Positions 3,588 through 60,868 of a stretch of DNA of 64,000 bases are shown here, piece after piece (the first letter of the stretch is position 1; each line of letters begins with the position of its first letter). The position numbers were made by a program, and so were the translations under genes. The notes beneath the pieces are model-generated. The model made no database searches, had not been told where the DNA came from, and saw only the letters and a program-made list of their open reading frames with translations. This DNA is from Branchiostoma floridae (Eukaryota > Chordata > Leptocardii > Amphioxiformes > Branchiostomatidae). Where the stretch lies: assembly GCF_000003815.2 (NCBI RefSeq), contig NC_049986.1, forward strand, positions 19,933,991-19,997,990. The letters run 5' to 3'.

Positions 3588-3595
3588 TTGTACAC

Positions 3596-6090: not shown

Positions 6091-8541
6091 TCACTCTACC
6101 TTTGGTACATTACTTTCCTGTGTACCATAGAAGTCGTATAAGTCATTACGATCTTGAACCTCTTCCTTTACATGTACCTCTTCCTCTTCCTCCTCCTCAT
6201 CTTCAAAATCAACATCTTCATCATCTAGATCACTCCAACTTTCCATCTCCTCCGGATCCTCCTCCTTGCTATCATCATCATCGTCATCATCATCATCATC
6301 ATAGTCATAGTCATCAACCTTCGTCTGGTATAACTTCCCTGTGTAATTTGAGCTCTGGTAACTTGGGTTCCACCTGTAATACGGGTTCTTCTGATGCTTG
6401 GCCATGTGGCGCTTCAGGTACTGTCTACTGACCGTCCTCATCTCACATTTATCACACTCAAAGTACTTGGCTGGATTGTGCGTGGCGATGTGGAGGTCGA
6501 TGGTGTGTTTCCGCGCGGCTGAAAAGTCGCAGAAGTCGCACTGGTAGGGTTTCTCCCCTGTGTGTCTTCTCACGTGTAGGGCCAAGCCTTGTTTATTAGC
6601 TGTCCTGAAACTACACAACTGGCACGCGTAGGGTTTCTCCCCCGTGTGCTTAGCCATGTGTAGGTCTAAACATCTCTTATTGGAAGCAGAGTAGTCGCAC
6701 TGGTCACATTTATGCGGTTTCTCACCTGTGTGGGTCCTCAAGTGACGAGTCAAGGAAGTTCCATGCGCAAAGGCGATCCCGCATGTATCGCACAGGTAGG
6801 GTTTCTCACCTGTATGCTTTCTCCTATGAATGACAAGTTTACGTGCCTCTGATGCTTCGAAGCCACAGTCTTCACACAGGTAAGATTTTTCGACCGCATT
6901 CAGTGCGGCAGGTGGGAGAGCGTAGGTGTGGTCCCAGACGTCGGGTGCTTTCCCCGTGTGCTCGCTAAGATGCAGGGATAGAACGATTCTGTCTGGGGTC
7001 ATGAAGTCACACACCCCGCACATGTAATAGTCTTTCTTAGCTGTGTGTTCAGCATTCTGCTCTTCCGTGCTGTCTTTTGACAATACAGAAACGTCATTCT
7101 GATCACCCGAATCGTCTTTCTCAGTGGTGTGTGTTGCCTTGTGCTGTTCCATACTGTCTTTAGACGATGTCGAAAAGTCGCACTGATCACATTTGTAGGG
7201 ATTTTCTCCGGTGTGTGTTGCCCTGTGAACCAGTAATAGCGAACTGTCTGCCGTTCTGAAGCCGCACCAACACACGTAGGGCTCAGTGTGCTTCAGCATG
7301 TGTTTGTCCAGGAAGTGTTTCTTTGAGGAGGCATAGCCGCACTGGTCACACTTGTAGGGGTACTTGTCTCCTGTGTGTGTCATCATGTGTGTGGATAGTT
7401 CAGACTTATAGTCACACTTGAAATCGCACTGTCCACACGCGTAGATGTAAGGTTTGAAGTCTTTATTAGTTTCACCAGTCCTTTGTAGTGAAACTTTGTT
7501 GTCGCTGGAGTGAGTAGTCATGTGCCTGTCCAGATAGTATTTCTTTGCAGAGGCATAGCTACACTGGTCACACTTGTAGGGATGTTTGTCACCTGTATGT
7601 ACGATCATATGTTTGGATAGCTCAGACTTATAATCACACTTGAAGTCGCACTGTCCACACGCATAGATGTAAGGTTTGAAGTCTTTATTAGTCTCACCTG
7701 TCGTTTGTAGTGGAACTTTGTTGTCACTGGAGTGAGTAGTCATATGCCTGTCTAAGTTGCTTTTACAGGCAAAACAAGTGTGGCATTGGTCACATTTGTA
7801 GGGTTTGTCAGGCCTGGCTGTGTGTATTTTCATATGTGGGGACAGTTGAGATTGATACTCGCATCTGAAGTCACAAAGTCCACATGAGTTGCTTTCTTTT
7901 CTCAGATGCTCACTTATTTGTGGTTTTGGCGCTGTGGGTCTGTCAAAATCCTGTTTCTGAGAAGCAGAGCTTGATTCTTCAGTTCCATGGTTTGCCATGT
8001 GTGGCTCCAAGTCGTATTTTCCGCTTGCAACATCGTTGCACTTGTCTAACTTGTAGGGCTTCTTCCCGGTACACACTTTCATGTGCTGTTCAATAAGGGT
8101 GGCCGTGTATGGTGACGTAAACCAGCACTGACTACACTTGAATTTTTTATGCACCGAATCACTGGGGGGCTTTGTGTCTGTGTGTTCTGCCACATTCCAG
8201 TCCATGTCATCTGTAAGAACCTGTACATGTGATGAGGTACTTTGGTCACCATATGGACTCTCGGGGATGTCAGAATTGTAAGGGTTTTCACCCGTATGCT
8301 TTTTCATGTGTACTGTAAGGTTTGCCATACGACTTGTTCTATATCCGCACTCTTCACAAATGTGGAAAGTCTTTGCAGAGACTTCACTGCAGGTTTCCTC
8401 ACATGGTCTCTCTGTTTCCTTGTCCTGCCGCCTTCCTGTGTCTGTTGTCTGGTCCTTTCTGCTGATATTCCTGTTCCCAGGATGTTCATCAATACGTGTG
8501 AGCAGTACAATAGGAAGAATACTGCTTGGCTTCTCCATCAT
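6091..8541 (-). CDS. C2H2 zinc-finger protein 2 (about 17 fingers) with acidic tail
   Basis: The ATG is one base after a 3' splice site (CAATTCTTAG, ending at 8543), giving 816 residues in one exon. About 17 C2H2 fingers run from residue 60 to about 715. One has a Cys in place of the last His, one has only one residue between its first two cysteines (CWC), and one early finger is degenerate. Fingers 5-6 and 7-8 are a duplicated block that includes the linker SSDNKVxLQxTGETNKDFKPY. The C-terminus is an Asp/Glu-rich tail (a run of ten Asp, then two mixed acidic clusters) containing VKEE, a match to the sumoylation consensus. One copy of the module shared with zinc-finger protein 1 lies near residues 25-55. 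Probably a nuclear regulator; targets unknown. Confidence 0.85.
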   Translation of the reverse strand: MMEKPSSILPIVLLTRIDEHPGNRNISRKDQTTDTGRRQDKETERPCEETCSEVSAKTFHICEECGYRTSRMANLTVHMKKHTGENPYNSDIPESPYGDQSTSSHVQVLTDDMDWNVAEHTDTKPPSDSVHKKFKCSQCWFTSPYTATLIEQHMKVCTGKKPYKLDKCNDVASGKYDLEPHMANHGTEESSSASQKQDFDRPTAPKPQISEHLRKESNSCGLCDFRCEYQSQLSPHMKIHTARPDKPYKCDQCHTCFACKSNLDRHMTTHSSDNKVPLQTTGETNKDFKPYIYACGQCDFKCDYKSELSKHMIVHTGDKHPYKCDQCSYASAKKYYLDRHMTTHSSDNKVSLQRTGETNKDFKPYIYACGQCDFKCDYKSELSTHMMTHTGDKYPYKCDQCGYASSKKHFLDKHMLKHTEPYVCWCGFRTADSSLLLVHRATHTGENPYKCDQCDFSTSSKDSMEQHKATHTTEKDDSGDQNDVSVLSKDSTEEQNAEHTAKKDYYMCGVCDFMTPDRIVLSLHLSEHTGKAPDVWDHTYALPPAALNAVEKSYLCEDCGFEASEARKLVIHRRKHTGEKPYLCDTCGIAFAHGTSLTRHLRTHTGEKPHKCDQCDYSASNKRCLDLHMAKHTGEKPYACQLCSFRTANKQGLALHVRRHTGEKPYQCDFCDFSAARKHTIDLHIATHNPAKYFECDKCEMRTVSRQYLKRHMAKHQKNPYYRWNPSYQSSNYTGKLYQTKVDDYDYDDDDDDDDDDSKEEDPEEMESWSDLDDEDVDFEDEEEEEEEVHVKEEVQDRNDLYDFYGTQESNVPKVE

Positions 8542-9065
8542 TCTAAGAATTGAGGAGAAAAAAGAGGAAAAATTGGAAGATCAGCTATATATACGTGTAC
8601 TTTCTGTATCTACCTGTGATATTAAAGAGCTGATAAATTTGTTATAGAGTTTCCTCCATTGCTCCTACAACAACAACAATTGTTTATCATATCTGACCCT
8701 CCCAATTCCAATCTTCTAACATATTTGGGTCCCATGCATGCTTTCTTTCCCAATCAGAGGATTTTAATGGCAATCTCACAAAAGCAGAACTGTCATAATT
8801 TCATGGGACGTTGTACAAATTACTACAATCAAATGATTTGTAGGATCAATTTCAATCAAACTCAAAGCTCAGCCTAGCTATATGAACCTATCTCGCTATA
8901 TAATTTCGAATCCCTTGGGCAGCATTCTTTGGCTATATAAAAAAATCCCGTTATCACCTATCCGTTCCTTTTCTAGTGCACAAAAAAGGAACTTTGCGCC
9001 CCTCCCCCTAATTTTTGATGTGCCAGCACGGAAAAGTGAATGATGAAATTATCTCAAGGACTTAC
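8542..9065 (-). other. Intron between the 5' exon and coding exon of zinc-finger gene 2
   Basis: Bounded by the acceptor at 8543-8544 and a donor (minus strand CTAG|GTAAG) at 9064-9065. No other structure is seen apart from A-rich stretches. Confidence 0.5.
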
Positions 9066-16023: not shown

Positions 16024-19000
16024 TCAAGCAATTCTCATAACGAGGCAGTCCTCGTGAATGATTCCCTGCGTGTCCATCCCGCCATACACCAGCAGCATCG
16101 TCACCTTCCCATCATGCACTGGACCAATCCCAGCATGCTCCTCTGACCCTGAGGCTGCTGCACGACCTTGAGCTGCTGCTGTGACCTTGGGAGCAGCTTC
16201 CTCCGGCAGAAACTGCTCCGTAACGTCCAATATTGTCGGCTTACTGCTCGCCTCTTCCGCGCTAGGAACTAGTTCTTCAGAATCTGCATTTTCTGACTGA
16301 CTGGAATTTGCTGAAGGAGGAACACTGGGTTCTGTTGCCACAGTTTCTGTTGCCACAGTTTCTGTTGCCATGGTTTCTGATGCCATAGTTTCTGTCTGTT
16401 TTGCATCACCTGCCTCGTTTTCTGGACCAGTGTTCTGTTCTTCACTATCCTGTCCACTGGCACAATGTGTCAGTGATGCGGTGCCCTCTCCAGAGTTTTT
16501 TGGAGCCCCCGATCCCGATGAACCGGTCCCACCCACAGACAGGTGTATGATACATGCCCCATGGTCCAGCCTTGGTCCGGGGGGTGGGCCCTCAGGTCTC
16601 AGCTCACTCCACGTCAGTCTTTCTACAGGAAAAAAACACAAAACAAGGTGGTGAATCTGATGAATGATGTACATGAAAAAGCTAATTGCTTTGAAAACTA
16701 TTTCAATGAAATATTATGAATACAAAACTGTTATATAAATGTTAACACAGACAATATGGCTGTATAGAGTATCTACATTGCCTTAGAATGCTCATTACTA
16801 GGACATCCCTAATCAAAATCCAGTGAGAAAATGGGTATAAAAAACATGTTAAGTGCCTTTCCTAAGGGCACAACATTCAGCCTGCTAGGGATTTGAACCC
16901 TGAGCCTTCAAATCCTATTGCAACAACCCTAACCACAAGACTACCACCATAGTCCATACAACACTCACCAGTGTTGAGGACATGCATGGAGTCCAGAGCT
17001 CCCTCCTGGTTCATACCCCCAAACATGTACACCAGAGAACCATGCACCACAGCTGTGTGCGCCGCCCGGGCGGTGGGGACCGGACCCTTTGGCTTCAACC
17101 GCTTCCATTTCTTTGTGTCTGTTGAAAAAACAGAATGTTTGTAATTTTGATTCACTGGAAAGAGATATGATGGTTAATGCCATTTGAAATGCTTGTCTTT
17201 GTCATAAACTACATTTTGTACCTGGGGCTTTTGTATGCTAAGTTTTTAATTGTATAAGATGCCTTTCTAGAATAATAGTAGTGCATACTATCAGAACGTC
17301 TGACTCTTAGAGTCAGAGAGACTAGAGAATAACTTAATTCTAAACTGACTACAACAGAAATACGATAACTTGTGTGTAACTATGTAAGAATGTAAGACCA
17401 CAAATTAGTTTCAACTTTTAACATATTCAACATTGTCAAGGGGAAAAGGAGATTGTATTTGAAATCATATCAGTCAACAGAAAATGCATATTAACTAGTA
17501 GAAAAGATGTACATGCAATAATAAAAAAACTAAAACTATTAAATAGAGTTTGAAAAATCATTCAGTCCAAGGACTTGATACAAATCTAGAACTCACCCAG
17601 ATTGAGAACGTACAAGTCGTCATAGAACGTGACCCCTGACATGCCCCCGTGTACGTACAGCTTGTTGCCGACGGCAACCATCACATGACCATGGCGTGGT
17701 TTGGGCGGCTTGCCCTCCATCTGGGGCTGGCTCCAGGTCAGGGTTGCTAGGGAACCAGATGTAAACAACAAACAGTTGAATTCTGCATCACAAAATGTTT
17801 GATCAACTAGTCTACATGCTTGAGTATACTTAAATATGACATTTAGTTCACATGAGAATGATTTCTTGGTTCTCGTATTTTAAAAGAGGCAGTGCTTGAT
17901 GAAATATTCACATGACAACAGAGTTTGAGGGGCAAGTCGGTACTTTGGTGCACTCTGTTGTCATGATTAGAGAATGTCTAATGTTTTCTGTAGGTAAAGC
18001 AGAATCTCTGATTGGCTGACAGCTGGTTAGAGGCCATGTTGAAACTTTTTAAGTTCTGTTAAACATAGCCTCCACAAGGTATATTGTATTTATCTATTTA
18101 TTTGTCCATTTATTTGTTAGTGTAGCTGTATACATGCATGGTGTAGGCCACAGGCGAGGCTCTGAGTATACACTACGAGAATAAATCATCACACACCTGC
18201 ATCAAAGACATGGAGTTTCCTGTCTTCTATGGGCTCGGCCCCCGTCTTGCCCCCTCCCCACACGTACAGCCTGTCCCCCCGGTGGGATGTATAGTGACAG
18301 GTGCGTGGGGAGGGCGGGGTGCCCTGCACATCAGCTGTGGTCCAGGTACCTGTCCCTGTAACCAAGCAGAATACAATGTTACTATGGCAACATGGCAATG
18401 AGATAGCACAGATATGTTCAACTGTGGCCCAGGTACCCATCTCTGTACTAGTACCAAGAAAAGGTACAATCATCAATACATAGGAGAAAGTTGCTAAAGC
18501 AGGAATTAGGATACTGTAAATTTGTTTATTTTGGCTGGGACAGGAAAGGAGGTTCTTGTAGAGTTTTCAGTTTCTGTTGAAAAAATTCTTGAGTAAAATA
18601 CTATAAATGTATTTAAGTTTGCAGGGATTTGATTTTGCGGAAGTGGGGAAAAAGTGGACTGTAGCTAGTACACACCTGTATCTAGCACCTGGATGTTGTT
18701 AAGGTTGCAGCCCTGCTCTGCCCCTCCGAACACGAACACCTTGCTTGGCTGGCTTTCAGGTGTGAAGCAGGTGTGTTCATACCTGGCCGTCAGCCCCGCC
18801 CAGTCCGGCTTCTCCCATGTGTACTTGTCTGATGATGGGAGTGAACAATGTATGTTAATACTTCGATGAAGGTTAGACAATCAGGTGATAAGGCCACCCA
18901 ATTCATTTGTTGCTTCTCAGATTTTTTCAGGTTTGAACAATGTATGTTATTTGTTGGTTAGCAGTATCATGAATTTTTTTATACAAGTTTGTGCCTGGAG

Positions 19001-19613
19001 GCTATTTGCAAGTATATGGTAGACACATATGTAGGGTGCATGCATTTGTACATGTTGCATGAAACAACTAGAGTTGTACCTCAGTTTGGAGAGTAATTTC
19101 TTTATCATGGGCCACATGACTTTTTCTGGTCATGTTTATCAGGAGTTCTATTTTATACCATTTTCTCTATCTGCGAGACATTAAGAAAACGATACCCATA
19201 TAATAGAAAGCCTGATAAAAACACCTAAAAAAACGTTAAAAAACAACTGGGGCCTAACCTTTGCTTGGAGAGTATAACAGAAACAGGGATATGCACTGCC
19301 CGATACACCATTTGGTGTGGGAAGGTCACTTCTTAACTCTTGTAAAACTCTAAACATAAGATCTAGACCACCATACCAACTGTCATCCATTTAAAAACTT
19401 ACCTAAGTCCAGCACAAAAGTATCAGCAAACGGCCCGCTGGGGTTGGCACCTCCGACCAGCACCACCCTCCCACTGCCCCCCACCCTGGGGAGGTACGTA
19501 CAGGTGTGCCCCACCGTCAGGCTGGGCCCACCACCCCCTGGGGATAGGACATACCACATCCCCGGGGCAGGGGGGTCCGTCAGGGGCAGCTCCAGTATGG
19601 GGTGGAGCTCCAT
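16024..19613 (-). CDS. RABEPK: Rab9 effector protein with kelch motifs (RABEPK/p40), six coding exons
   Basis: Coding exons 19403-19613, 18676-18828, 18197-18355, 17597-17746, 16969-17118 and 16024-16622 join in phase 1 at every junction to 473 residues. An untranslated segment precedes the ATG from an acceptor at 19623. Each of the first five exons carries about one kelch blade: VGHTCTYLP..VVLVGGANPSG, RYEHTCFTP..VFVFGGAEQG, PRTCHYTSH..LYVWGGGKTGAEP, PRHGHVMVAVG..LYVHGG and AAHTAVVHG..VYMFGGMNQEGALD. The last exon closes the propeller with LLVYGGMDTQG. It also inserts about 140 low-complexity residues, including ASET/ATETV repeats, between the strands of blade 6; this explains the length excess over the roughly 370-residue human protein. 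By family, it binds Rab9-GTP and promotes late-endosome to Golgi transport of mannose-6-phosphate receptors. Confidence 0.93.
16857..16955 (-). repeat. tRNA-like SINE remnant
   Basis: AAGTGCCTTTCC(T/C)AAGGGCACAA followed by GGATTTGAACCC (a degraded B-box read on the minus strand) matches the fuller SINE at 40330-40744. It lies just downstream of the donor of RABEPK exon 5. It is not a functional tRNA. Confidence 0.55.
17909..17968. repeat. Short inverted repeat in RABEPK intron 3
   Basis: CATGACAACAGAGT and its complement ACTCTGTTGTCATG are separated by about 30 bases. It is a hairpin of unknown origin, possibly a small element remnant. Confidence 0.55.
18416..18458 (-). pseudogene. Echo of the 5' edge of RABEPK exon 3
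   Basis: The + strand words CTGTGGCCCAGGTACCCATC then TCTGTA copy the exon 3 acceptor region at 18335-18361 (CTGTGGTCCAGGTACCTGTC then CCTGTA). On the minus strand the copy reads TACAG followed by GATGGGTACCTGGGCCACAG, keeping a TWxT-like reading. It is immediately upstream of the real exon and could act as a competing acceptor. Confidence 0.55.
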
Positions 19614-20173
19614 GCTTTTTCTCTGGAAAAAAAGAAACAAAGTCAATGAAGGTTAGACATCCAGGTAATAAGTAAGATAGGCTGAATAGCAGTTACTCAA
19701 GCAACTGGATTCTAGTACATGAACTTTGAAGCCAATTCCTTACTAGTAAGTAAATGCCACTTGGCACACAAAAACAAAGGACAATTGGTCAGGAAAACAA
19801 ACTTTAGGTTATAATTAAGGTATAATCACATGAAACGTAAGATTGATTTGACATATTCATAGTGAATCTATTTTTGCAGATTTGGCAATGACAGTGTCAC
19901 AATCAAACTGCCAATCATGATATAAGTACTGTACATATGTAGCCCTCCCTCCTCCAAAGACTTCAAGGGCACTTGCCATTAAATTTGTTTGCCTCTGATC
20001 TTTGCACTTAGGACTTGTAGCCTTCATGTGATCTAAATGGCAAACAAACAAGTCTGTTTCAGTGTTTGAAAAGAAAACCAAGGTCATCCAAAAAACCATC
20101 AACAACAATACTGCTTGCCAGGTACGGTACCCAAGTCTAACAGGTGGTCTAACTTGAGAGAACCCAAGACACC
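19614..20173. promoter_or_regulatory. Head-to-head spacer between RABEPK and PPT2 first exon 1
   Basis: It contains the RABEPK acceptor at 19623. It also has a copy (19655-19715) of a dispersed repeat with words GAAGGTTAGACATCC, TACTCAAGCAACTGGAT. The 5' end of the RABEPK untranslated region must lie in or upstream of this spacer. No core promoter motif is clear. Confidence 0.3.
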
Positions 20174-20314
20174 ATGGGTGCTGACTACAGGGTTTTTGCT
20201 GCAACTTTTCTGACAGTGGTCCTGAGTGTTTCTGCCTACAAACCTGTTATACTTCTACATGGCATCTTTGAGCCAGCATCTTCAATGAACGCACTCCAAG
20301 ACCTGGTTACAAAG
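20174..20314 (+). CDS. PPT2: PPT2 alternative first exon 1 (most distal)
   Basis: ACCATGG start context. The 47 codons are M-GADYR, then a hydrophobic signal core (VFAATFLTVVLSVS), then AYKPVILLHG, then the tail IFEPASSMNALQDLVTK. It ends AAG|GTATGG in phase 0, compatible with the common acceptor at 28094. The HG dipeptide at its end of strand 1 contributes the oxyanion-hole loop in this thioesterase family. It is the shortest of the seven because the spacer between signal core and AYKP is reduced. It does not share the upstream block of exons 2-5, so it is an older copy or was moved. Confidence 0.8.
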
Positions 20315-21436
20315 GTATGGTTTTTCACTTGTATTCATTCATTCTCTCATTCCATTTTTGTCAACCGATTTGCTGCTTTGTTTATCACACCAAGTACATT
20401 GTTTTTAATTTTCTACCTTGACCACCATTGATGTCAATGGACCCACATTGTTTGTACATAAACATGTACCTACACTCGGCTACAGTTATACTAATAGAAA
20501 TAATATTGAATCACCCATAATGTGACATATATATACTATATATATAATATAGTAGTCAGGTAATTTCAACAAAAGGTTCTCAGTCCTTGGTGGTCCTTAC
20601 CAAGTCTTTTTGATACAGGGTTGTCCTATTACATCTGTGGAACTTTGTAGTCTCTATAGACTGACTACCCTGGTTATTGCTAAGGGAGTTTTGCTACTAG
20701 AGGGTGATTGGTCCTCCACAAAGAGGGGAAATGCTAACCTTAGGTTGGACTTACTCCCCCGGCCGATTTCCCAATTTTTGCCAAATTCTACGATCCACGC
20801 ACCCCCCCTTGGAAGGCCTGCTGGTGGCTAGGAACTTCAGGGCAGGGGGTCTTATCTCCCTTTACTTACCAGCCAGCTGATATGACTGTTCTCCAGACTT
20901 TGTTCTTTGACCCTTTAACTCAGATGCTCCACCTTACTTGTTTGGCAAAGATGTGTCTTATTTTTGTTGAGTGAGCAATGCTGCAAGGTACAGCTTAAAA
21001 TGATCAAAAACTCTATCTATTTGCCCATAACAATTCCTCAATGTCATTTACGTCAACTTTTTTTTTACGAATCTTTGATATTTGCAACTTTCCTTTATCA
21101 CAAATAAATGTCATATTTTTGCTGTCCACAACAAAATCAGCATTTTCTCCTAAAAAAGATCATCAATTACCTTATTACTGTAAATGCCTAGAACTAGCTA
21201 GTAATCGACAAGTTTGCAGGGATTTAACTACATGGTAGGGACAAACTCTCCAGAGCATTTGCGGTGGTTTGAATTTGAAGGTCGCAGTTGAAACAAGGGC
21301 AGGCAGAGAACAGAACATGCATTTTCATGGTGGTTCTAATGAAGTTATCGATAAATAGGTCACTGTGGAAACCATGAACAATTTAAACTAACGCAAAAAT
21401 GTCCATGTTTACAGTAATCCCCCTGCTGCTGGTCAT
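20315..21436. other. Spacer between PPT2 first exons 1 and 2
   Basis: No further first-exon copy was found. A segment at about 21060-21180 (TTTGATATTT, TATTTTTGCTGTCCACA, then AGCATTTTCTCC and A-rich) recurs downstream of exons 2 (21755-21855) and 3 (22273-22350). This indicates that the duplication unit included this flank. 20520-20560 is an AT palindromic stretch. Confidence 0.5.
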
Positions 21437-21542
21437 GAGGTGGCCTTTGGTACCAAATTTGTTTTGGTCATGAGGCCAGGTCGTTTGTAAACTGATATCA
21501 GACTTCAGAGTCCACTACAGCCAAATTTGAGAGTTGTCCAAC
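21437..21542 (+). promoter_or_regulatory. Shared upstream block of the PPT2 first-exon array
   Basis: GTGGCCTTTGGTACCAAATT at 21440, then TTTTGGTCATGAGG, then CAGAGTCCACTACAGCCAAA at 21507, ending CCAACATG at the start codon. The same blocks precede exon 3 (21921-22034), exon 4 (22384-22473, without the first half) and exon 5 (23078-23124, without the second half). Conservation outside the coding part may mean a duplicated promoter and leader or simply recent duplication; the sequence does not decide. Confidence 0.45.
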
Positions 21543-21716
21543 ATGGCTGCAGATGTCAGGTCACACCCCCTTTTTGTGAGGCACCTACTTGTTGTTCTGT
21601 TACTGGTGTGTTCAGCTAGGTACCAAAATGCAGCCGTGTACAAACCGGTGTTGATCATCCATGGTATATTTGATGCTGTAACGGACTTGGACGATTTGCA
21701 GACCATGATAGGAAAG
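21543..21716 (+). CDS. PPT2: PPT2 alternative first exon 2
   Basis: 58 codons: MAADVRSHPLFVR, signal core HLLVVLLLVCSA, spacer RYQNAAV, then YKPVLIIHG and the tail IFDAVTDLDDLQTMIGK. It ends AAG|GTACTG in phase 0. The reading frame is intact. The preceding CCAACATG context is shared with exons 3-6. It fits the same N-terminus of lysosomal PPT2 (signal peptide plus first strand and HG loop). Confidence 0.8.
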
Positions 21717-21920
21717 GTACTGTAACAGTTATGATATCAACCTTAAAGTTTGATATTTTAGCTTTCCTACATTGTAAACACAGTAGTAGTATTTTTGCTG
21801 TCCACAAAAAAAAGAAGAAGAAAAAAAAATACAATTCAGCATCTTCCCTAAAAAAAGATCAACCAATAACTAATTTCTACCTGGTAAGGTGCCCTGGCCT
21901 AGCAGTGGACTAAACTAACT

Positions 21921-22034
21921 TGAGTGGCCTTTGGCATCAAATAAATTTATTTGGGTCAAGCAGACCGAAGGTGTTCAGTGGACTAAGATGAGACATTCAG
22001 AGTTCACTACAGCCAAATTGACCAACTGACCAAC
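21921..22034 (+). promoter_or_regulatory. Shared upstream block before PPT2 first exon 3
   Basis: GAGTGGCCTTTGG at 21922, AAATTTATTTGGGTCAAG, then CAGAGTTCACTACAGCCAAA at 21998, GACCAACATG at the start. Counterpart of the block before exon 2, with substitutions and a short insertion. Confidence 0.45.
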
Positions 22035-22208
22035 ATGCCAGCTGGGAGTTCCAGCTTTCATCCCTCTGTGAGGCAACTACTTGTTGTTCTGATACTGATG
22101 TGTTCAGCGCCGTGCCAAAATGCAGCAGCGTACAAACCCGTGTTGCTTATCCACGGTTTATCAGAGCGCGCAGCGGATATGGAAGGTTTTCAGGACCTGA
22201 TAGGAAAG
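22035..22208 (+). CDS. PPT2: PPT2 alternative first exon 3
   Basis: 58 codons: MPAGSSSFHPSVR, signal core QLLVVLILMCSA, spacer PCQNAAA, YKPVLLIHG, tail LSERAADMEGFQDLIGK. It ends AAG|GTAATC in phase 0. Its tail is closest to exon 4 (ERAADMEG in both), so these two share the most recent duplication or have exchanged sequence. Confidence 0.8.
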
Positions 22209-22383
22209 GTAATCTCAGAATAATTATCTACAGATTACCTACTAGTAACCGACTAACTTTGTTTCTGCTAACTTTGACATTTCGATTTTCCTTCATCCAG
22301 TATTTTTGCTGTCCACACAAAAATATTGTACAATTTAGCAGCATCTTCCACTTCAAAAATTAACTGTCTCTATCTCTGCCCAT

Positions 22384-22473
22384 TGTCACCAAATTTGTTC
22401 TGGTCAAGCGTGCCAAAGTCCTTAAAGCACACTCATATCAGTGTCCACCACAGCCAGATTCTAACTGACCAAC
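22384..22473 (+). promoter_or_regulatory. Shared upstream block before PPT2 first exon 4
   Basis: CACCAAATTTGTTCTGGTCA at 22387, then GTGTCCACCACAGCCAGATT at 22441 and ACTGACCAACATG. It lacks a clear GTGGCCTTTGG half. Confidence 0.4.
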
Positions 22474-22644
22474 ATGTCAGGGAGTCTGACTCTGAGGCTG
22501 AGCTCTTTTATGATGAGGCTGCTTGTTGTTCTGTTACTGGCGTGTTCAGCTCAAAACACCTCAGCGTACAAACCTGTGATGATCATCCATGGTATATTAG
22601 AGCGCGCAGCGGATATGGAAGGTTGGAAAGACATGATAGAAAAG
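22474..22644 (+). CDS. PPT2: PPT2 alternative first exon 4
   Basis: 57 codons: MSGSLTLRLSSFMMR, signal core LLVVLLLACSA, spacer QNTSA, YKPVMIIHG, tail ILERAADMEGWKDMIEK. It ends AAG|GTAGCA in phase 0. Further in-frame ATGs at codons 13-14 would still leave a full hydrophobic core. Confidence 0.8.
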
Positions 22645-22689
22645 GTAGCATTTTTTTTTCACATCTACCATAACCAGCAGGATGTATTT

Positions 22690-22985
22690 TATTTTTAGCC
22701 AGGCATGCATCCGGGCGTCCTTTGGACGAACTGTTTTACAAAACATAACAAACTGGAACGCACTGGATGCCTTAGAGTAATTAAGACACCCCTTACCTTG
22801 GGGAGCAGACCCTCTGACAGGCATAAAATTCTGAGAGACCAGGCCGGGATGCTACTACAGCAGGTCACATGATTGGTACACATGTACATAGAATGACAGG
22901 ATTCAAACCAAGGACCTCTGGGTCATGTACGCTGCAGTAACACCAGCACAACCTCATGAAAGAGATTTGTTACAAGGGCACAAAA
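22690..22985. repeat. Dispersed repeat copy in the PPT2 first-exon array
   Basis: Sequence with GCATGCATCCGGGCGTCC, GGGGAGCAGACCCTCTGACA and CATAAAATT, followed by a degraded B-box-like stretch near 22890 (CAGGATTCAAACC). Related sequence lies at 37080-37210 in the opposite orientation and at 5690-5800. Origin not identified. Confidence 0.45.
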
Positions 22986-23077
22986 TCATGGGACTTTGTG
23001 GGATCTCCCCCTCAAAAAATATCATCCCTTATCAGACAGGGCACTAGTACTTGTAAGCAGTTATTGTCTTCCTGCTG

Positions 23078-23124
23078 AAGTGGCCTTTGGCCCCAAATTT
23101 GTTGGTCAAGCATTAATGTCCAAC
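23078..23124 (+). promoter_or_regulatory. Shared upstream block before PPT2 first exon 5
   Basis: GTGGCCTTTGGCCCCAAATT at 23080, TGTTGGTCAAG, and then almost directly TCCAACATG. The CACTACAGCC half present before exons 2-4 is missing, so this block is a deletion derivative. Confidence 0.4.
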
Positions 23125-23307
23125 ATGTCGGCAACTTTTAGGTCTCATCCTTGTCTTGTGGGACAACTAAATGTAGTACTTGTTGTTCTATTACTGGTAT
23201 GTTCAACTCCGTGCAAAAGCACCGTAGCGCACAAACCCGTGTTGATCATCCATGGACTATTTGGGGTTCTAACAGGCTTTAGTGATTTGCAGCACATTAT
23301 AGAAAAG
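23125..23307 (+). CDS. PPT2: PPT2 alternative first exon 5
   Basis: 61 codons from the ATG in the CCAACATG context; an in-frame ATG three codons upstream (23116) is possible. MSATFRSHPCLVG, long signal core (LNVVLVVLLLVCS), spacer TPCKSTVA, HKPVLIIHG, tail LFGVLTGFSDLQHIIEK. It ends AAG|GTAACC in phase 0. The Tyr of YKP is His here, the only copy with that change. Confidence 0.78.
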
Positions 23308-23685
23308 GTAACCTTAAGTTCTTTGTAGAACAACCCAAGTCATTTAGAATATTCTGTTTTTCAGTCTTATTACATGTAGGACGTCATATTAGTATATATG
23401 GCTGCTGGTTGAGCTACTTGTGCCTGCATGGCGTAATGGCAATTTTTAAAGGTATATAACACACATTTGATGACGTCATCAGCCATTCTGAGTTTTGATT
23501 GGGTGAAGTTGCAAATGGAAGAAAGAAACAGAATGCAGCCAGCAGGCCAGCAAAAATAACATGTTTTCCTTCAGAAACATAAAAAAGCCCGATGAGTGTT
23601 TCTAACTGGAGTGATACTACCCGATGTACCCTTCTCTACTCATACTGAGTCATAGTGTGAGTTTAAATTAGTGGCAGTTGCCAAC
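23308..23685. other. Spacer between PPT2 first exons 5 and 6
   Basis: No repeat family or gene is recognised. A TGACGTCATCA stretch at about 23470 matches a CRE/AP-1-like site about 210 bases upstream of exon 6, which could belong to its promoter. Confidence 0.3.
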
Positions 23686-23862
23686 ATGTCAGGTTTTGGG
23701 TCCTACCTGTCTTGTGTGGTGCTAGTAGTAGTACATGTCTTCTTGCTACTGCTGCCTACAAATCAGTACCAACATGCCACGGCATACAAACCTGTCCTAG
23801 TGTTTCATGGAGTACTCATGGATGTTGTGGAACTTCAGTCTTTTCAAGATATGATAACGAAG
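23686..23862 (+). CDS. PPT2: PPT2 alternative first exon 6
   Basis: 59 codons: MSGFGSYLSC, signal core VVLVVVHVFLLLL, spacer PTNQYQHATA, YKPVLVFHG, tail VLMDVVELQSFQDMITK. It ends AAG|GTATGT in phase 0. Its upstream flank is unlike that of exons 2-5 apart from CCAACATG. Confidence 0.78.
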
Positions 23863-24334
23863 GTATGTAGCAATCAGGATTTTTACAGGGTAGTATAGGG
23901 GGCAGTGTTGAGTATAGGGGGCATCTTTGTATGGCAATCAAATACTAGTAGTCATAAGATAGTGCTTGTTTGGGGGTCAGGGAAATCCGCCCCCTGTAAC
24001 GTTTTTGAATTTATAATAGTAATATTACTTTCAGAAACACTAGTACTATTCCCTGCATTTTGAAGTGCTCAGTAAGATAGTGAGTGAAGGCCGAATGTTA
24101 TCGAATAAAGCCAAAATGTTTTACCTTAAAGCTTTGTTACAAAACAAAAGAAAAATCCCCTAGGCTTAAAACAGCATTTCAAAATGGTGGCAGCTGCTCT
24201 AAACCTGAGAAACCAAGTGTGAGTATAAGCAACAATGGTCAGCAGGGCAGTTCACAAGTATGTTGATTAAGTACCTGGATACCAATACCTTGATACCACA
24301 TACAGGAGAGAAGGTATCATATAAACATGTTTCC

Positions 24335-24506
24335 TAGTCTCCAAGCAGACCCTACGGTGCCTTAGAAATAGTATCAAAGCTGGCAAGGTACCAGGTGCCC
24401 GGTGCCCGTTTGACTCCCTTAGCCGGCTATCTCCCTTTGGCCGGCTATACTCCTTTGCCAGCTTTGATATTGTTTCCAAGGCACCGTAGGGTCTGCTTGG
24501 AGACTA
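24335..24506. mobile_element. Inverted-repeat element, family A copy 1
   Basis: Arms of about 55 bases begin TAGTCTCCAAGCAGACCCTA and end with its complement. A perfect 9-base direct repeat, CATGTTTCC, flanks it at 24326-24334 and 24507-24515. A second copy is at 33244-33606. The 9-base target duplication and long arms suggest a Mutator-like non-autonomous family. Confidence 0.85.
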
Positions 24507-24672
24507 CATGTTTCCCACATGTTTATATAACTACGCCCCCTTTACCATGGGACCTGTTTTACATGGTCTGGAGATAGTTTGATCTGGACATCATTTCTTT
24601 TGAAAACAGTGTTTAAATCTATTGACAATACATAGAACTTTGATAATAACTTGCATTCATGTAACGGTTTCT

Positions 24673-25295
24673 AGACGACTCGGCACCTGAGACAACTCGG
24701 CCCTAGTCGGCACCATACTTACTCGGCACATAACTTTTATATTTTGCACTCGAAGAATGATAATTCTATCATTCCGGCAGCATAATAAGTGACATAAGAA
24801 TGTAAAAATCAATCTCACCCTATGAGGTAACGTTTTAGATACAAATTTTTAGGATACAAGATCGTCCAATTCCAAAACATGTTGCGGGCCCCGCCGGCGA
24901 CGCCATTTTTAGTTGTTATATCGGCGTTCTTTCACGATGTCACTCTACTTCTCTTCTACTATGACCGTGTTTGCAAGTACGTACAAATGAAAATAGATGT
25001 AATAAGCATTTCAATATATTTTGTTGGTCATAGATTACAACTGTCTGTGGGTTTCAAAAACACGTTGAGATGACTGATCTGATATAGACAGAGCGTCGGC
25101 CGCGCCGTTCAAAGTTACATTGAAGTTGAAGTGACGTTCAGAGCCTCAAAATGTCCGTAAAATTGTGCCGACTGTATGACTTACAAGTTATTGCAGTGAG
25201 AGAAATGTTTTGCAGTTAAAATATTGTGAAGGTTTGTGAGAAACGCAATTCCCAATTGGCTAGGTGCCGAGTCGTCCCAGGTGCCGAGTTGTCCT
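24673..25295. mobile_element. Inverted-repeat element with CTCGGCACCT end motifs
   Basis: The left end carries GACGACTCGGCACCT and GACAACTCGGC (24674-24703). The right end carries the same two motifs inverted (25263-25295), so each end has a doubled motif. No transposase frame is seen in about 620 bases and no clear target duplication was found. Confidence 0.6.
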
Positions 25296-25983
25296 GATAA
25301 TCACAAATTCTATGATACTTGGTAATTTTGGTATCTTGAGTTTGATTTACCCCATACTTGAATTTTTGTTCTATTTATTCTCGTGCGGCAAAATCACGAA
25401 AGATATAGATTGGTGAAATTGAACTGGATCGGTCCTTAATTTGACATTTTCTAGAAAGAACTGAAAAACTGGTTTCCGCACATTTTACATGCTTCCGGCT
25501 GCCCCCCTCCCCATTGGTGCTTTTTGTCGATTAAAAATCTTTTAGCTGACTAAATCTACTCGCTATTGTGTTTGGTTTACTTATAGAAAGCCTATAGATT
25601 AAACCATACTTACGGTATAACTGCCAAGTGTTCCAAGAGTTCGCTAGAAGCAAAACTCTTGTCGTCAAACAAAACAGACGGAGAACTCCATTTTGGAACG
25701 CGCGCGGTCTCCAACAACAAATACTGTAAACATGGCCAAGAATTTGGTGCCAACAAAATTACGTAATGATATAAGAGAATAAAAGTTTAACTTACAATTT
25801 TTACAATAACTGACAACTAAAATGATTAATAATTCTTTTTTTATCAACCATTCTGTGAAATTTTATTTAAAAGAATAAAATTTACATAAGTCATTTTAAA
25901 AAAACTTTCTCAACATTCGCACCGAGCGAATAGATTGCTACTTAAACTCACTATATTTCGGTCACGATAGGTCAACAACAAAC

Positions 25984-26151
25984 ATGGCGGCGGGGTGCGT
26001 AAAAGTTTTCCCCAAATTCGTCCTTTCGTCGTTCCTGGTGCTTCTCTCCGCGTTACTGGTCCAAATCAGGGCCTACAAGCCCATAATCATCATACACGGC
26101 ATATTCGATCACGCCAGTACCTTTGACAACTTCAGCGTCGCGATCAAAAAG
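25984..26151 (+). CDS. PPT2: PPT2 alternative first exon 7 (most proximal, probably ancestral)
   Basis: 56 codons: MAAGCVKVFPKFV, signal core LSSFLVLLSALLV, spacer QIRA, YKPIIIIHG, tail IFDHASTFDNFSVAIKK. It ends AAG|GTTCGT in phase 0. The start lies in AACATGGCGGCGG, a YY1-type element at many animal transcription starts. The tail (IFDxxSTF) is the closest of the seven to the human PPT2 pattern GLFDSSYSF, which with its proximity to exon 2 argues that this is the original first exon. Confidence 0.88.
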
Positions 26152-26384
26152 GTTCGTAACATGCGTTTTTTGAAGGTTAGACATCCTGGTAAACAAACAT
26201 GATCGTAACGTTGACATGATAAATGTTTACCTGCACATAATTTGGGAAGCAAATTCTTCTTCCTTTTCTGCTTCTCCAAACAAATAAGGTCAATGTGCGC
26301 TGGACCAGATGGTTGTCATGTCACCATGGTTACTGGTAGAGTAGCAGACACCCTGTCCTGTGGTGTTCGATATTTGTAGAATGC

Positions 26385-26770
26385 AGCAAGCCGCAGCATT
26401 CTGCAGTGGCGTCCTCTCTCCGAAAGGAGGAGGAACGCCCGCCTCACCTTCTTTTATAAGTTAGTTAACAACAAGATTAACATAGACACACAGAACCTAC
26501 TGATTCCGACCCAAGGGCGAACCCGAGGCAGCCATCAACATAAGTACAAACCAATCTTTGCAAGAACAGACACATACAAGTACTCATATTTTCCTAGAAC
26601 AATTCCGGAGTGGAATTCCCTGCCTGGTGCGGTAGTAAGTGCTCCCACAGTTGAGAGCTTCCGCGCCAGGCAGGAGGGCTGCCCGCCCTAACCCGGGACC
26701 TCAGCTCCCCCCCTACTTTGCCCCTTGCGGGGTTATATGGGGGTAACCCATGATGATGATGATGATGATG
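26385..26770 (+). mobile_element. 3' end of a non-LTR retrotransposon with (GAT)n tail
   Basis: The plus strand decodes, with stops kept out over about 95 codons, to a reverse-transcriptase C-terminal tail: LQWRPLSERRRNARLTFFY, then TQGRTRGSHQHKYKPIFART and YSYFPRTIPEWNSLPGAVV. This FPRTI.WN.LP signature is typical of CR1/L2/Jockey-group elements. The rest of the ORF is absent (5' truncation). It ends in a short (ATG)n repeat at 26752-26770. It lies in the long intron between PPT2 first exon 7 and common exon 2. Confidence 0.8.
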
Positions 26771-27969
26771 CAAGTGAGTCAGGACAGCTAGAGAGCTAGC
26801 TCATATAGTTAAATTAAGCGTGTGTAAGGTTGTGTTTCACTTTCAGAAAAGATAAACAGATCTAGAGCAGAAGTTTGTTAGGCCAGACAATTTGAAGGTT
26901 AACATTATGTATCTGTTTGCAAGTCACAGTTACCTATCTACTTGTCTTCAATGATATGTCAGCTATTCATATTCGCACCACAGTTGTCCGATCCAACATC
27001 ATGCAACTTTGACTAGAAAACTGTCACTTTAAATGTAATGTTGTGTAGAAATGTAGAAATTAGAGGGGCGAGTAGGAACAGAAAGAAACCAACATGCCGG
27101 ATCGAACCCGGGTTGGCAGATTACCAACCAGCAGTGAAACCACTGTGCTAGAAAAGGCTGATCAGCCATTTCACACAGCTGTTTGACACTTCTTACACCC
27201 CCCCACCCCCACACTGTTACAGTTGTCTTGTCAGCTATTGGTAACAAAAAAGTTGTAATTTGATATTACAACTAACATCATATGATTTGGGGGACATTTT
27301 AGCTACTGTTCTATAGCTATTTAGCCCAATCATTTCAGGTTATTGTCATTATTATCATCAATGATCTAGGTATGACGTTCCAATAGGTGTCATGTACCAG
27401 AAACGTGATGTAATCATCAAGGAGCTTTTATCAGAGCTCCTTGGTAATCATGCATGACTCTTTCCAAATTTTTTATTTAGAAGCTATGAGTTGTAGTAAT
27501 TTGTCCATGGATAGCAGCTCAGATAATCTATTACATGTACACTTCAAATGATCTTAAAATCGATTTCAGATCCCTGCAAAACAATATGCAAAACAGTGGA
27601 TTGACATGGCTCCTAGTCTATTAATCAATTGAAATTGTCAGGAACACCAAGGAAATCCTGGATGGAATGTGTTTGGAGAGACATTAAAACGTGCGGTCAG
27701 AGTGACAGGGGTGAACCCACTGGACAGAGCAGCATGGAAGTGCAGTGTAAAAACTAACAGACTGTTGCCTACCCGAGTCAGGGACCCCATCAGTAGTATA
27801 ATCAAATACTGGATAGAACTACTATTGGCGCTCAGTTCAGTTCCATTCATTTCATCCTCGTAGTATGAGGTGCCACGAAGAATGCCGCTCCAGACTTCTT
27901 AATCCAGCATGGCGGCCAGCAGATCGCGGTCCTTATGATAATAAATGAATGGATCTGTTGATAAATCTG
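26771..27969. other. PPT2 intron 1, remaining part
   Basis: No gene. A C-tract lies at about 27198-27210, and a tRNA B-box-like GGATCGAACCCGGG at about 27101 suggests a small SINE remnant. Confidence 0.4.
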
Positions 27970-28008
27970 GATCTCTGGCACCAATGTGACCATCATCGAT
28001 GAGTACAC
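27970..28008 (+). pseudogene. Echo of PPT2 common exon 2 (fragment)
   Basis: About 34 identical bases (CTGGCACCAATGTGACCATC and on to GATGAGTACACA) match 28103-28136 inside common exon 2, only 130 bases upstream of it. The exon's own acceptor is not copied and no other AG with a pyrimidine tract directly precedes the fragment, so it is unlikely to be spliced. Confidence 0.8.
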
Positions 28009-28093
28009 ATTTGTTCATACTGTATCACGTGCACATTCATTCCAATTAAACAGATGATCCTGCATTAGTAATGTTTTTCTCTCCCCTCTCCAG

Positions 28094-31000
28094 GCCCACC
28101 CTGGCACCAATGTGACCATCATCGATGAGTACACAGAACTGTTCAGCCTCTATCCCATGTGGGAGCAGGTCAGGGGGTTTCAGAAGACCATGGCTCCCAT
28201 CATGCAACAGGCCAAGGATGGGGTGCACATTATCTGCTATTCTCAGGGTCAGTTATAACACATTTAGTTTCTTTGCAGTAATAAAGATTTTCAAGTTTTG
28301 AACCAATATAAGGAAAAATCATGATGTATTTTTACTTTGACATCATTCTTAGCCTAATATTGTACATGTGTATTCTTATAATTGAAGTTATTTGGTTTGA
28401 GTTTTCAATGAAAAGTTCAAGGAAACCATAACACAATACAGTTTGCCCCCGTATATACTCACTGATGCTGCATATTGGTACAATTCCCTTTATATCACTT
28501 TAGATTCTCGTGTGGCAACTTATTATGGCATCTGGTGGAGTTATGAGAGTAACTGTTGATGTTACCATGAGTACACAGATTACTTAATTCTGATATACCG
28601 GTCTTGATCACATTTCTTTCAGTCAAAAGGCACTGTTATTTTCCTTGTAAGACCAACAGATATATTTGTCATATGACAAAATTCTGTTGTTTGATTGTTT
28701 GTATGACAGGTGGCCTTATATGTCGAGGTGTTCTAGAGTCGATGGACGACCACAACGTGGACACCTTTATTTCACTGTCTTCTCCACTCATGGGGCAATA
28801 TGGAGGTAAAACTGCAACATCTTATTGCTTTATCTACATGTGTATCGTTCATTCAAATCTAATTGACTAATTTCATGTAAAATCAAACAAGGATAATTGG
28901 AGAAAATGGAGATGCTCTACATAGAAGAGAACAAAACACTGTGTTTTATTTTAAATTTTAATTTAAATCTGATTTGATTGCCAAACTGCTCATAAAAAGG
29001 ATAGAATTTGACAACTTTATTCTTTCAGAAGATTGATTTGAGAAAAAATCGAACAAAAGAACTCCATTTGCTTGCAGTGGAGTGTGTTCTATTTAATTGA
29101 TGGAAGCCTGTGTGATACAACTAAGAAGCCCGATATGGAAAATAAGTTCCAGTCTGGAACACTTGTATCGTACATTATCACGACCCAGGTATGACATAAG
29201 CACATACATATATCATCACTAATAATAATGATAATATTATTATATCTTAAGGCATGAGTACTAGTGTCAGGTGATAAAGTTGCTCTGCTATTTATTTTTA
29301 TTTTCTTGATAATAGAGAGAGAGAAAAAAAGGGGGAAAAACATCAAACATGTGCCAAATCTGATTATCATGCCTTTTCCCTCCCATTGCAGACACAGAGT
29401 ACCTGAAGTATGTGTTTCCCCACTATCTGAAGGAGAACCTGTATAAAGTAGCCTATACTTCCTATGGACAGGACATCTCCATCAGTAACTACTGGAACGG
29501 TAAATATGGACTGTCTTATTAATTTCAATACAAGTTCTATAATTACTGTGAATAAGAGATGCTGTACGCAATGTTCACATATATCTAATGTACTTGTTCA
29601 GCAAATTTCTGTTGTTCAAGCTAACCTTTAGTGTATTTCTTTTTTGTCATTAACACTAGAAGCAAACCATTTGGTCAATGGAAGATGAGCCCATGATTAT
29701 GTCTAGATACATGTACATTATACACATTGGTGTATCAGGAACCTGCAGCTGGCCCTTCGTCAAACACTGCTCTAATTTCCTGCTTACATTGTTGCAAGCA
29801 TGCTGACAGTTCTGTGCAAGAATATGACGGTCATGGATGGATGCCATTAGTATATAAATAATCAATGATTTTGTTGTTTATGTTGTTTACTTGTTTACTC
29901 CCCAGACCCCCACCACCAGGACCTCTACAAGGAGAACAGTGTTTTCCTCGCTGTTTTAAACAACCAGACGGCCAAAAATGACAAAAGTAAAGGTAAGGGT
30001 ACTGCAGAGATACAAATTACGTTTAGTCTGTGTAATGCAAACTCTGCTATCCGGAGCTTGTAGCCTCCTCCCCGCGGAGCGGCAATGTAGGATGGGCCTA
30101 AGAAGCGCGATTAAATCAGGCTAAGATTACATTAATAAATCTATCAACATTCATCATTATATATATGAATATCACTCTGATTTGAGTTCACCATATATTT
30201 GGTTTCTGTTTTTTCAAAGGCATGATATGAATGCAAATTTATATTCTGTATGATTTTAATCTGCAGTACTACTTCTACTATTCCAGGAAGAGTAGTAATG
30301 TATCACTAAGGGAGATTCTGATAAACCAAACCAAATTACCCAAAACCAAAAAAAACTATGGAGGTTAAAATCTTATGATTTGCCAAAACCAAATAAATGA
30401 ATTTGCTGTATTCAGGGTAAGACAGTACAAGCTGTGTTGTGAGCTGGAAACTGATGAATTTTCCCATCACAGACTGTTTTTTTTTCCACCCCAGAATACA
30501 AGAATAACTTCCTCAAGCTGAAGAAACTGGTGCTGATTGGAGGGCCAGATGATGGTGTCATTACCCCCTGGCAGTCCAGGTAGGAACTGCAGCCTTGTCT
30601 GGTTGTTCATAGGAATACAAAAATGATCTGAGCAGACTGAACTAACATGATGCTGATAATATTAATGTTGAAAGCTGTTAATCATTGTTCTGTGTTTTTT
30701 TTTTCCAGCCACTTTGGTTTCTATGATGACAATGAGACAGTGGTGGAGATGAAAGAACAGGAGGTATGTCATCCTTTCCTGGCTCTGTCATTCCATTTTC
30801 AAAGCCTTTTCACACCTTGGCCTTTGGACCAGGGCTGTCTCCAGGACCCAGGACGTAAATTTGCTTGTTGGAAAAAACTCTCAGAAAATCGAATGAGAAT
30901 GATTGTATTTTCCTAGGCTCAAAATGACACACTTCATAATCATGCAACCTAACATGATGAGCTCCCAAGCAATGAGATGGCACTGATTCATTCATTCATC

Positions 31001-31553
31001 TAATGCTTTGCAGCACTTCTCAGCTGATTCAGGGTTGGACAAGTTGTAAAATTCACTTGTCCTATTAGGCAAGTACATATTAAAAGATTTGCTTGCCCGA
31101 AATATTATTAATTGAATAACATTTTTAGATATTTTTTCACTAACTGTCTTCCACTTTGAAATGGAATTCTTTTATTTTTGGCTCTGTTTTTCTGTGTTTA
31201 CCAATGCTTGATGCCATGACTATGAAAGGTAACAAGAATATCAAAATCTTTCTCATGGAAAAATCTTACTTGTCCAATCAGGCAAGTGGGGTAAGACTTG
31301 GGGTAGGACTTGCAGTTGCCCAATCAGCATTTTCACTTGCCCTGGACAATTGGGCTAATGGACTTGTCCAACCCTGTGATAACATATTGTACACTTCTCT
31401 TCTCTGTAGGTGTACCAGAGGGACTACTTTGGGCTGAAGACCATGGATGCGAGGGGAGATGTCACGACGTACGAGATCCCTGGGGTTCAACATCTCAATT
31501 GGCACAAAAATCTCACAGTTTTCAACGACTACATCGAAAAGTGGCTTACTTGA
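28094..31553 (+). CDS. PPT2: PPT2 common body, lysosomal palmitoyl-protein thioesterase 2 (exons 2-8)
   Basis: Exons 28094-28247, 28710-28805, 29392-29499, 29906-29992, 30495-30579, 30709-30763 and 31410-31553 read in frame to 242 residues. With a 56-residue first exon the protein is 298 residues, close to the 302 of human PPT2. Exon 2 ends in the nucleophile elbow (CYSQG|G, catalytic Ser). Exon 3 has [20 protein letters not shown]. Exon 4 has ISNYWN. Exon 6 has the acidic residue motif [13 protein letters not shown]. Exon 8 has HLNWHKN, with the catalytic His, before the C-terminal helix. All catalytic features are intact. Known role: alpha/beta-hydrolase in lysosomes that cleaves acyl thioesters, preferring S-acyl-CoA over palmitoylated proteins compared with PPT1. 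Exon 2 accepts in phase 0, matching all seven first exons. Confidence 0.95.
31030..31376. mobile_element. Inverted-repeat element, family C copy 1
   Basis: It starts CAGGGTTGGACAAGT and ends with the complement (ACTTGTCCAACCCTG). The interior has repeated ACTTG(T/C)CC words. Probable 5-base target duplications TGATT/TGATA are at 31025-31029 and 31377-31381. A relative is at 50890-51257. Lies in PPT2 intron between exons 7 and 8. Confidence 0.75.
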
Positions 31554-33243: not shown

Positions 33244-33606
33244 TAGTTTCCAAGCAGATCATATGGTGCCTTAGGGATAGTATCAAAGCTGGCCAACGAG
33301 TATAGCCGGCCAAAGGGAGTCAAACGGGCAAGAGTGCTGGATATCTGCATCTGTATCAGATTCTATACGGCTAGTATAACCGCCATGCGGCGTAACACAC
33401 CAGCTTGACAGGCACGCGGCGCGGCAGCAGCTGGTTATATTACACCAAAGGACCTGTCACACCTAACTTTTGCAAGTTTTAAAATCCTAAAGTACTGACC
33501 TACCAGTACTTCAGAATTTCTAAACTTGCAAAAGTTAGTACTGGCTATACTCCTTGGCCAGCTTTGATACTATCTCTAAGGCACCGTAGGGTCTGCTTGG
33601 AGACTA
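33244..33606. mobile_element. Inverted-repeat element, family A copy 2, with insertion
   Basis: The ends match family A copy 1 (TAGTTTCCAAGCAGATC... and ...GGTCTGCTTGGAGACTA). A 9-base repeat GGTTGTTTA/GGTTGTTTC flanks it. Its middle carries about 70 bases (33370-33445) like the 3' end of the retroelement fragment at 44300-44400 (CGGCGTAACACACCAGCTT, AGCAGCTGGTTATATTACAC). It also holds a 33-base imperfect hairpin (TAACTTTTGCAAGTTT and its complement). Confidence 0.75.
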
Positions 33607-34706: not shown

Positions 34707-46881
<12,175 letters not shown>

Positions 46882-60541: not shown

Positions 60542-60868
60542 NNNNNNNNNNNNNNNNNNNNNNNNNNNNNNNNNNNNNNNNNNNNNNNNNNNNNNNNNNN
60601 NNNNNNNNNNNNNNNNNNNNNNNNNNNNNNNNNNNNNNNNNNNNNNNNNNNNNNNNNNNNNNNNNNNNNNNNNNNNNNNNNNNNNNNNNNNNNNNNNNNN
60701 NNNNNNNNNNNNNNNNNNNNNNNNNNNNNNNNNNNNNNNNNNNNNNNNNNNNNNNNNNNNNNNNNNNNNNNNNNNNNNNNNNNNNNNNNNNNNNNNNNNN
60801 NNNNNNNNNNNNNNNNNNNNNNNNNNNNNNNNNNNNNNNNNNNNNNNNNNNNNNNNNNNNNNNNNNNN
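60542..60868. other. Assembly gap (327 N)
   Basis: A run of N. Open frames through it are meaningless. Confidence 0.98.

Follow-up and report, generated by a model that had tools for sequence, protein, structure and literature searches.

Clustered protocadherins combine promoter choice with large ectodomain exons, and in exon size they differ from the locus described here. Other parallels are the UGT1, GCNT2 and UGT2A clusters, which Li and Wu (2007; PMC1885805) regard as confined to vertebrates and as moulded by birth-and-death evolution; in their account the variable exons of UGT1 and GCNT2 are preceded by distinct promoters, and UGT1 has a conserved upstream motif. We examined a 64,000-nucleotide stretch of the genome of the lancelet Branchiostoma floridae (contig NC_049986.1, positions 19,933,991 to 19,997,990; hereafter the window). 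A locus within it is best read as a single gene for the lysosomal thioesterase PPT2 (palmitoyl-protein thioesterase 2) with seven tandem alternative first exons, that is, a multiple-variable-first-exon cluster, and we put the probability of this reading at roughly 0.7. To our knowledge, vertebrate PPT2 has one coding start, against the seven first exons found here. In our literature search, no listed paper dealt with a lancelet PPT gene having alternative first exons; the search did not extend to preprints or to the majority of subscription papers, so it does not prove novelty. If the reading is correct, the variable/constant layout arose independently in another enzyme, in a non-vertebrate chordate, where the exchangeable unit is very small and extends into the active site. 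The array would then offer a compact test of whether promoter choice diversifies mainly regulation or enzyme specificity.

The seven first exons (E1 to E7) are homologous and lie head to tail, the slash marking the exon end:

20174..20314, plus strand: alternative first exon E1, 47 codons, donor AAG/GTATGG, an old copy
21543..21716, plus strand: alternative first exon E2, 58 codons, donor AAG/GTACTG, younger subgroup E2-E5
22035..22208, plus strand: alternative first exon E3, 58 codons, donor AAG/GTAATC, younger subgroup E2-E5
22474..22644, plus strand: alternative first exon E4, 57 codons, donor AAG/GTAGCA, younger subgroup E2-E5
23125..23307, plus strand: alternative first exon E5, 61 codons with HKP replacing YKP, donor AAG/GTAACC, younger subgroup E2-E5
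23686..23862, plus strand: alternative first exon E6, 59 codons, donor AAG/GTATGT, an old copy
25984..26151, plus strand: proximal first exon E7, 56 codons, donor AAG/GTTCGT, in CpG-rich DNA

Each begins with an ATG and encodes a hydrophobic core, KPxxxxHG and a tail, and all seven read from ATG to AAG/GT in phase 0 without stops (ends located by script). An earlier sequence-only reading had reported these starts and undamaged frames, and both hold. It had also given three or four residues between KP and HG and a tail of 16-17: the spacing is four in 7/7, and of the two tail lengths 17 stands and 16 falls away, the tail past HG having 17 residues in every copy. Six alignment columns are invariant (M1, K, P, H, G and the final K). 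All seven are thus homologous tandem first exons with a start codon and a common splice phase, where two or more would suffice to define such an array. Donor scores range from 4.4 to 10.0 bits under an approximate matrix. Among the window's 4163 GT sites the 90th and 95th percentiles are 4.4 and 6.0 bits, and all seven donors exceed the former. When the peptides were searched against both strands of the window with tblastn, every peptide recovered all of its six counterparts at E <= 2e-3; any further matches were short (E >= 0.06). The genome (513,431,437 bases, 431 contigs) was searched with the E2 and E7 peptides. The former gave seven matches at E <= 10, namely E1-E7 themselves (E 4.6e-32 to 0.38, the weakest being E1 at E=0.38; stops in none), and the latter five, all inside the array; neither search found a decayed first-exon copy anywhere in the genome.

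Downstream lies one set of common exons:

28094..28247, plus strand: common exon 2, with a phase-0 acceptor and AHPGTNV...YSQG, placed by alignment with 1pja
28710..28805, plus strand: common exon 3, from the gene model
29392..29499, plus strand: common exon 4, from the gene model
29906..29992, plus strand: common exon 5, from the gene model
30495..30579, plus strand: common exon 6, from the gene model
30709..30763, plus strand: common exon 7, from the gene model
31410..31553, plus strand: common exon 8, including the stop codon, from the gene model

Exons 2-8, modelled over 28094-31553, have GT/AG at every intron and together give a continuous 242-residue reading frame. The proposal that 28094 is the next compatible acceptor agrees with homology, phase and a polypyrimidine-AG, which makes it a candidate acceptor at the level of sequence. 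In the preceding intron, 126 bp upstream, positions 27975-28009 repeat a 35-nt part of common exon 2 (28101-28135) without a mismatch. The body is single, as had been claimed. One extra match in the window is at chance level (E=0.61), the seven genome matches at E <= 0.001 fall one to each of exons 2-8, and no hidden further body was found in the window or the genome. The locus therefore has a single downstream constant region.

The enzyme belongs to the same family as vertebrate PPT2. Two of the seven isoforms were compared with human PPT2 (1pja_A), in alignments near full length: E7 plus body matches at E=1.2e-106 (residues 18-297 of the joined isoform) and E6 plus body at E=7.8e-105. Matches to PPT1 are far weaker (E=7.9e-20 and 2.2e-19 for E7 plus body against the PPT1 chains; about 1e-19 to 1e-20 for the E7 and E6 isoforms). 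CYSQGG, GGPDDGV and the His of GVQH/GISH align with the human protein, and HG is invariant in all seven first exons; we take the Ser of SQG, the Asp of PDDG and the C-terminal His to be the catalytic residues. A 146-residue part of the body matches PF02089 (E=1.5e-32). Human PPT2 is described as cleaving palmitoyl-CoA but not palmitoylated proteins (PMC5359973). PF02089 occurs at six places in the genome, three here and three in one PPT1-like gene (locus L014 on contig C2). That gene likely has a single first exon: tblastn with body and exon-1 peptides gave one exon-1 candidate, weak (E=0.26) and picked by eye, and an HG-motif pattern search at the gene found no match.

Tandem duplication is evident: E2, E3 and E4 each sit in a repeated unit of ~440-490 bp together with the DNA before the exon (repeats D3, D6, D7 and D8, together with the alignment), with start-to-start spacings of 492 and 436. 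The copies could on this account be truncated genes, left over from tandem duplications of the whole gene after loss of the bodies, but no remnant of exons 2-8 was found between the copies (E <= 0.1) or elsewhere in the genome (E <= 0.001), and the repeated units comprise upstream DNA and exon 1 only. We reject this explanation as highly improbable. Slighter still is the chance that the array is an artefact of misjoined haplotypes or collapsed repeats. Lancelets are very polymorphic, according to a paper on the Chinese lancelet (PMC4284660), yet the array contains no N run (the two in the window are at 42640-42739 and 60542-60868) and its copies diverge far past the allelic level (pS 0.35-0.91). 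Furthermore, no second copy was found on other contigs with the E2 peptide or in a DNA search in which 40 of 203 candidates were scored.

The analogy with UGT1A drawn in the sequence-only reading fits this anatomy. As described by Li and Wu (2007; PMC1885805), UGT1 likewise has tandem in-frame variable first exons of near-equal length joined to one constant exon set, every variable exon encoding a signal sequence plus an N-terminal enzyme portion; an upstream motif common to variable exons and birth-and-death evolution are further likenesses. The same source gives the differences: a single, unusually large exon there encodes the acceptor-binding domain, against 47-61 codons here, and each exon there has its distinct promoter, whereas promoters here are putative. 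GCNT2 (IGnT) is alike in having a few similar variable first exons with their own promoters, separately spliced to a small constant set, and differs in enzyme class, in its number of variable exons (three in human, mouse and rat; seven at the lancelet locus), and in being called vertebrate-specific (PMC1885805). In structure (many homologous first exons, one constant body) the lancelet locus belongs with these systems; in function it so far does not.

Selection on the first exons was assessed from the ratio of nonsynonymous to synonymous substitution rates (dN/dS, here w), using our own codon-likelihood script and a likelihood-ratio test (LRT) against w=1. Over all seven exons jointly w=0.41 (LRT 31.5, p=2e-8; 0.40 and 0.42 under two further topologies), and an iqtree2 codon fit to the full alignment (GY+F1X4) gave successive values of 0.427 and 0.398 in one log. 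By region, constraint across the seven is strongest in the AYKPxxxxHG strand (w 0.095, p=1e-16) and also present in the signal part (0.54, p=8e-4) and the tail (0.46, p=8e-5). For the distal six, E1-E6, w=0.47 (p=1.4e-5), not near 1, as the sequence-only reading had needed; for E2-E6 it is 0.60 (p=0.008). Terminal branches give 0.036 for E1 (p=8e-5) and 0.052 for E7 (p=1e-4), both rough values because the branch lengths lie at their upper bound and synonymous change is saturated, and 0.35 for E6 (p=0.04). NG86 dS, computed over the full exon, is undefined in 12 of the 15 pairs outside E2-E5. Within E2-E5 the strand/HG core is constrained under three topologies (w 0.19-0.20, p 2e-4 to 3e-4; 0.195, p=0.0003 under the main one). 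This pattern of branch and group values points to a two-tier array, with old copies E1, E6 and E7 and younger copies E2-E5 in which the core is held and the rest drifts; the sequence-only reading mentions neither this age structure nor the minus-strand kelch gene next to the array.

Several observations weigh against seven working first exons. The array is known here from DNA alone. The E1 and E7 branch estimates depend on the saturated branches just mentioned, and each of the younger terminal branches is indistinguishable from w=1 (E2 0.57, E3 0.56, E4 0.85, E5 1.12). The distal-six result does not carry over to E2-E5 as a group, for which w=0.75 (p=0.20; 0.81 under the other two topologies, p 0.36-0.37), with the signal part (0.88-0.93) and tail (0.92-1.11) near neutral under the three topologies. 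Comparison of models M1a and M2a detected no positive selection in E2-E5 (LRT 0.00, p 1.0) and no positively selected class over all seven exons (LRT 1.60, p 0.45), at the low power of four and seven short sequences; for UGT1, in contrast, positive selection is reported (PMC1885805). Three donors are weak, those of E2, E4 and E7 (4.4-4.8 bits, barely above the 90th percentile), and E1-E6 have no CpG-rich promoter, only E7 lying in a CpG-rich context.

Some of these points would suit a reading in which only E7, perhaps with E1 and E6, is functional, and E2-E5 are a recent burst of dead exon copies, still undecayed, within the intron of a neighbour. Their ratios are indistinguishable from 1 jointly and singly, and the DNA around them is depleted in CpG, as within the body of a transcribed gene. 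All four are nevertheless open, and their gaps are frame-preserving only. When the four units were aligned simply as DNA and gaps counted row by row, 9/9 gap runs in the coding part had a length divisible by three, against 9/29 upstream, although rows share events and hence are not independent. Simulated drift along the fitted terminal branches of E2-E5 left all four open with probability 0.006, and open with ATG and GT with probability 2.1e-5; also keeping KP....HG and the last K lowers this to 8e-11, for a motif picked after inspection. As a suggestive point, only 0.6-10% of drifted E2-E6 descendants have a signal core as hydrophobic as the real one. The constrained strand/HG core stands against dead copies as well. 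Taken together the copies show no decay, and we consider this alternative unlikely.

If the locus is one PPT2 gene with seven first exons, a separate promoter upstream of each would drive its transcription, followed by phase-0 splicing in cis to the start of common exon 2 (28094). A first exon requires no 3' splice site, and a transcript from any of the seven could therefore skip the others and join exon 2. The signal peptide, the first beta-strand, HG-X (the oxyanion element in alpha/beta-hydrolase chemistry) and the subsequent loop and helix would be particular to each product, and the shared catalytic body would supply the Ser-Asp-His triad to every isoform, so that seven isozymes are predicted. 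Most likely, E7 is the ancestral, broadly used start, in a CpG-rich promoter beside a kelch gene; E1 and E6 would be old constrained alternatives, and E2-E5 younger ones, clearly held in their structural core only. The chief consequence would most likely be regulatory, through extra tissue- or stage-specific starts, with protein diversification a possible second effect; altered substrate specificity among the isoforms is a guess. A difference in specificity is conceivable because the oxyanion element and the subsequent loop both fall within the exchangeable part. Nevertheless, we think it doubtful that the locus encodes seven promoter-switched PPT2 isozymes of differing acyl-chain or head-group specificity, an independent UGT1A-like system in a lysosomal enzyme. 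For the family of thioesterases suggested earlier, selected differences are not demonstrated, because w in E2-E5 is indistinguishable from 1 and constraint is clear only in the strand/HG core.

A weaker form of the same reading, a sub-case and not an exclusive alternative, is that the extra starts are used while the isoforms are catalytically equivalent, and we give it only slightly less than an even chance. Equivalence would let the tail drift and keep the core, which is what E2-E5 display, and no positive selection was detected. The DNA before the younger exons is also pertinent: within E2-E4, identity over the 60 alignment columns preceding the ATG (0.68-0.81) is close to that of the exons (0.71-0.75). 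Less readily accommodated are the lower sharing of DNA upstream of E5 (0.42-0.61) and the constraint on the tail over all seven exons, together with strong tail differences among the older copies, a divergence that equivalent isoforms would not need. The duplicated units also share a short element:

21442..21463, plus strand: element GGCCTTTGGNACCAAATTTGTT, upstream of E2, with relatives at 22378-22399 (before E4) and 23082-23103 (before E5)

With up to 3 mismatches the element has 3 matches, against a mean of 0.00 in 100 shuffles. It is common by descent of the duplicated unit and may have a promoter role; it precedes only three of the seven exons, which sets it apart from the UGT1 motif.

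Gene conversion, prominent in clustered protocadherins (PMC1885805), may be reflected here in one mildly suggestive tract of 26 identical nucleotides shared by E3 and E4 (p=0.018, best of six pairs, uncorrected). Region-wise DNA comparison is at or near chance for some pairs, e.g., E5-E7 and E6-E7. The Chinese and Florida lancelets are placed ~120 million years (Myr) apart by Huang et al. (2014; PMC4284660), and the saturated divergence of E1, E6 and E7 suggests that these copies are older than that ~120-Myr split. The E4-E5 and E5-E6 gaps contain dispersed repeats (about 22693-22873 and about 23402-23590, respectively); among the matches listed for them (40 of 203 candidates scored), only the window's own overlap an exon. 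A separate inverted repeat at 24335-24506, with arms of 52 nt that are 94% complementary, is probably a dispersed palindromic repeat because very similar arms were seen by eye near 33249-33606.

The neighbourhood of the array contains a second gene and the region that the two may share:

about 17600-19613, minus strand: kelch-repeat gene, head to head with PPT2, with Kelch_4 in its first coding exon (left end approximate)
19613..25614, minus strand: putative first-intron region of the kelch gene, which would contain E1-E6 (the donor-acceptor link is conjectural)
25300..26200, no strand assigned: CpG-normal, putative promoter region of E7, delimited by the CpG observed/expected ratio (o/e)

The minus-strand gene is presumably RABEPK-like. 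Its coding ATG at 19613 immediately follows a polypyrimidine-AG, and the gene therefore probably has a 5' exon further to the right, where a candidate donor GTAAGT for a 5' untranslated exon follows base 25614 on the minus strand. E1-E6 thus probably lie inside the first intron of the kelch gene, on the opposite strand. CpG o/e is 1.56 in the 400 bp around the E7 ATG, and reaches 1.03 (25320-25780) and 1.52 (25780-26200) against 0.33 (24200-24660) and 0.35 (26700-27200) to either side; in 1-kb windows it is 0.19-0.49 over 15-24 kb (kelch gene, E1-E6) and 0.17-0.39 over the PPT2 body (28-32 kb). This pattern is equally expected from a PPT2 transcript starting at E1 and from a kelch gene body. 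In the congener B. lanceolatum, nearly all 5-methylcytosine is reported to lie in gene bodies, and 25% of promoters defined by cap analysis of gene expression to be bidirectional, with enrichment for housekeeping genes (PMC6292497). The E7 promoter region is probably bidirectional and common to PPT2 and the kelch gene. A wider CpG island spanning 24.5-26.5 kb was considered and rejected, about 24664-25299 being a dispersed element and the remainder about 25.3-26.2 kb. That element, beside the E7 promoter region, is ~635 bp long with 28-nt terminal inverted repeats. It has at least 45 matches in the genome including the window's own (40 of 53 candidates scored), of which at least 24 others are near-full-length copies at 85-94% identity, and resembles a miniature inverted-repeat transposable element.

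Elsewhere in the window, two long open frames on the minus strand (654-3758 and 6091-8580; 1034 and 829 aa) look C2H2 zinc-finger-like by eye, and a DEAH-helicase-like exon (Helicase_C, HA2_N) lies at 38244-39383, also on the minus strand. At 56131-56733 a unit is repeated ~three times within one open frame, and 57231-57754 is a short-period repeat array in which several frames are open on both strands.

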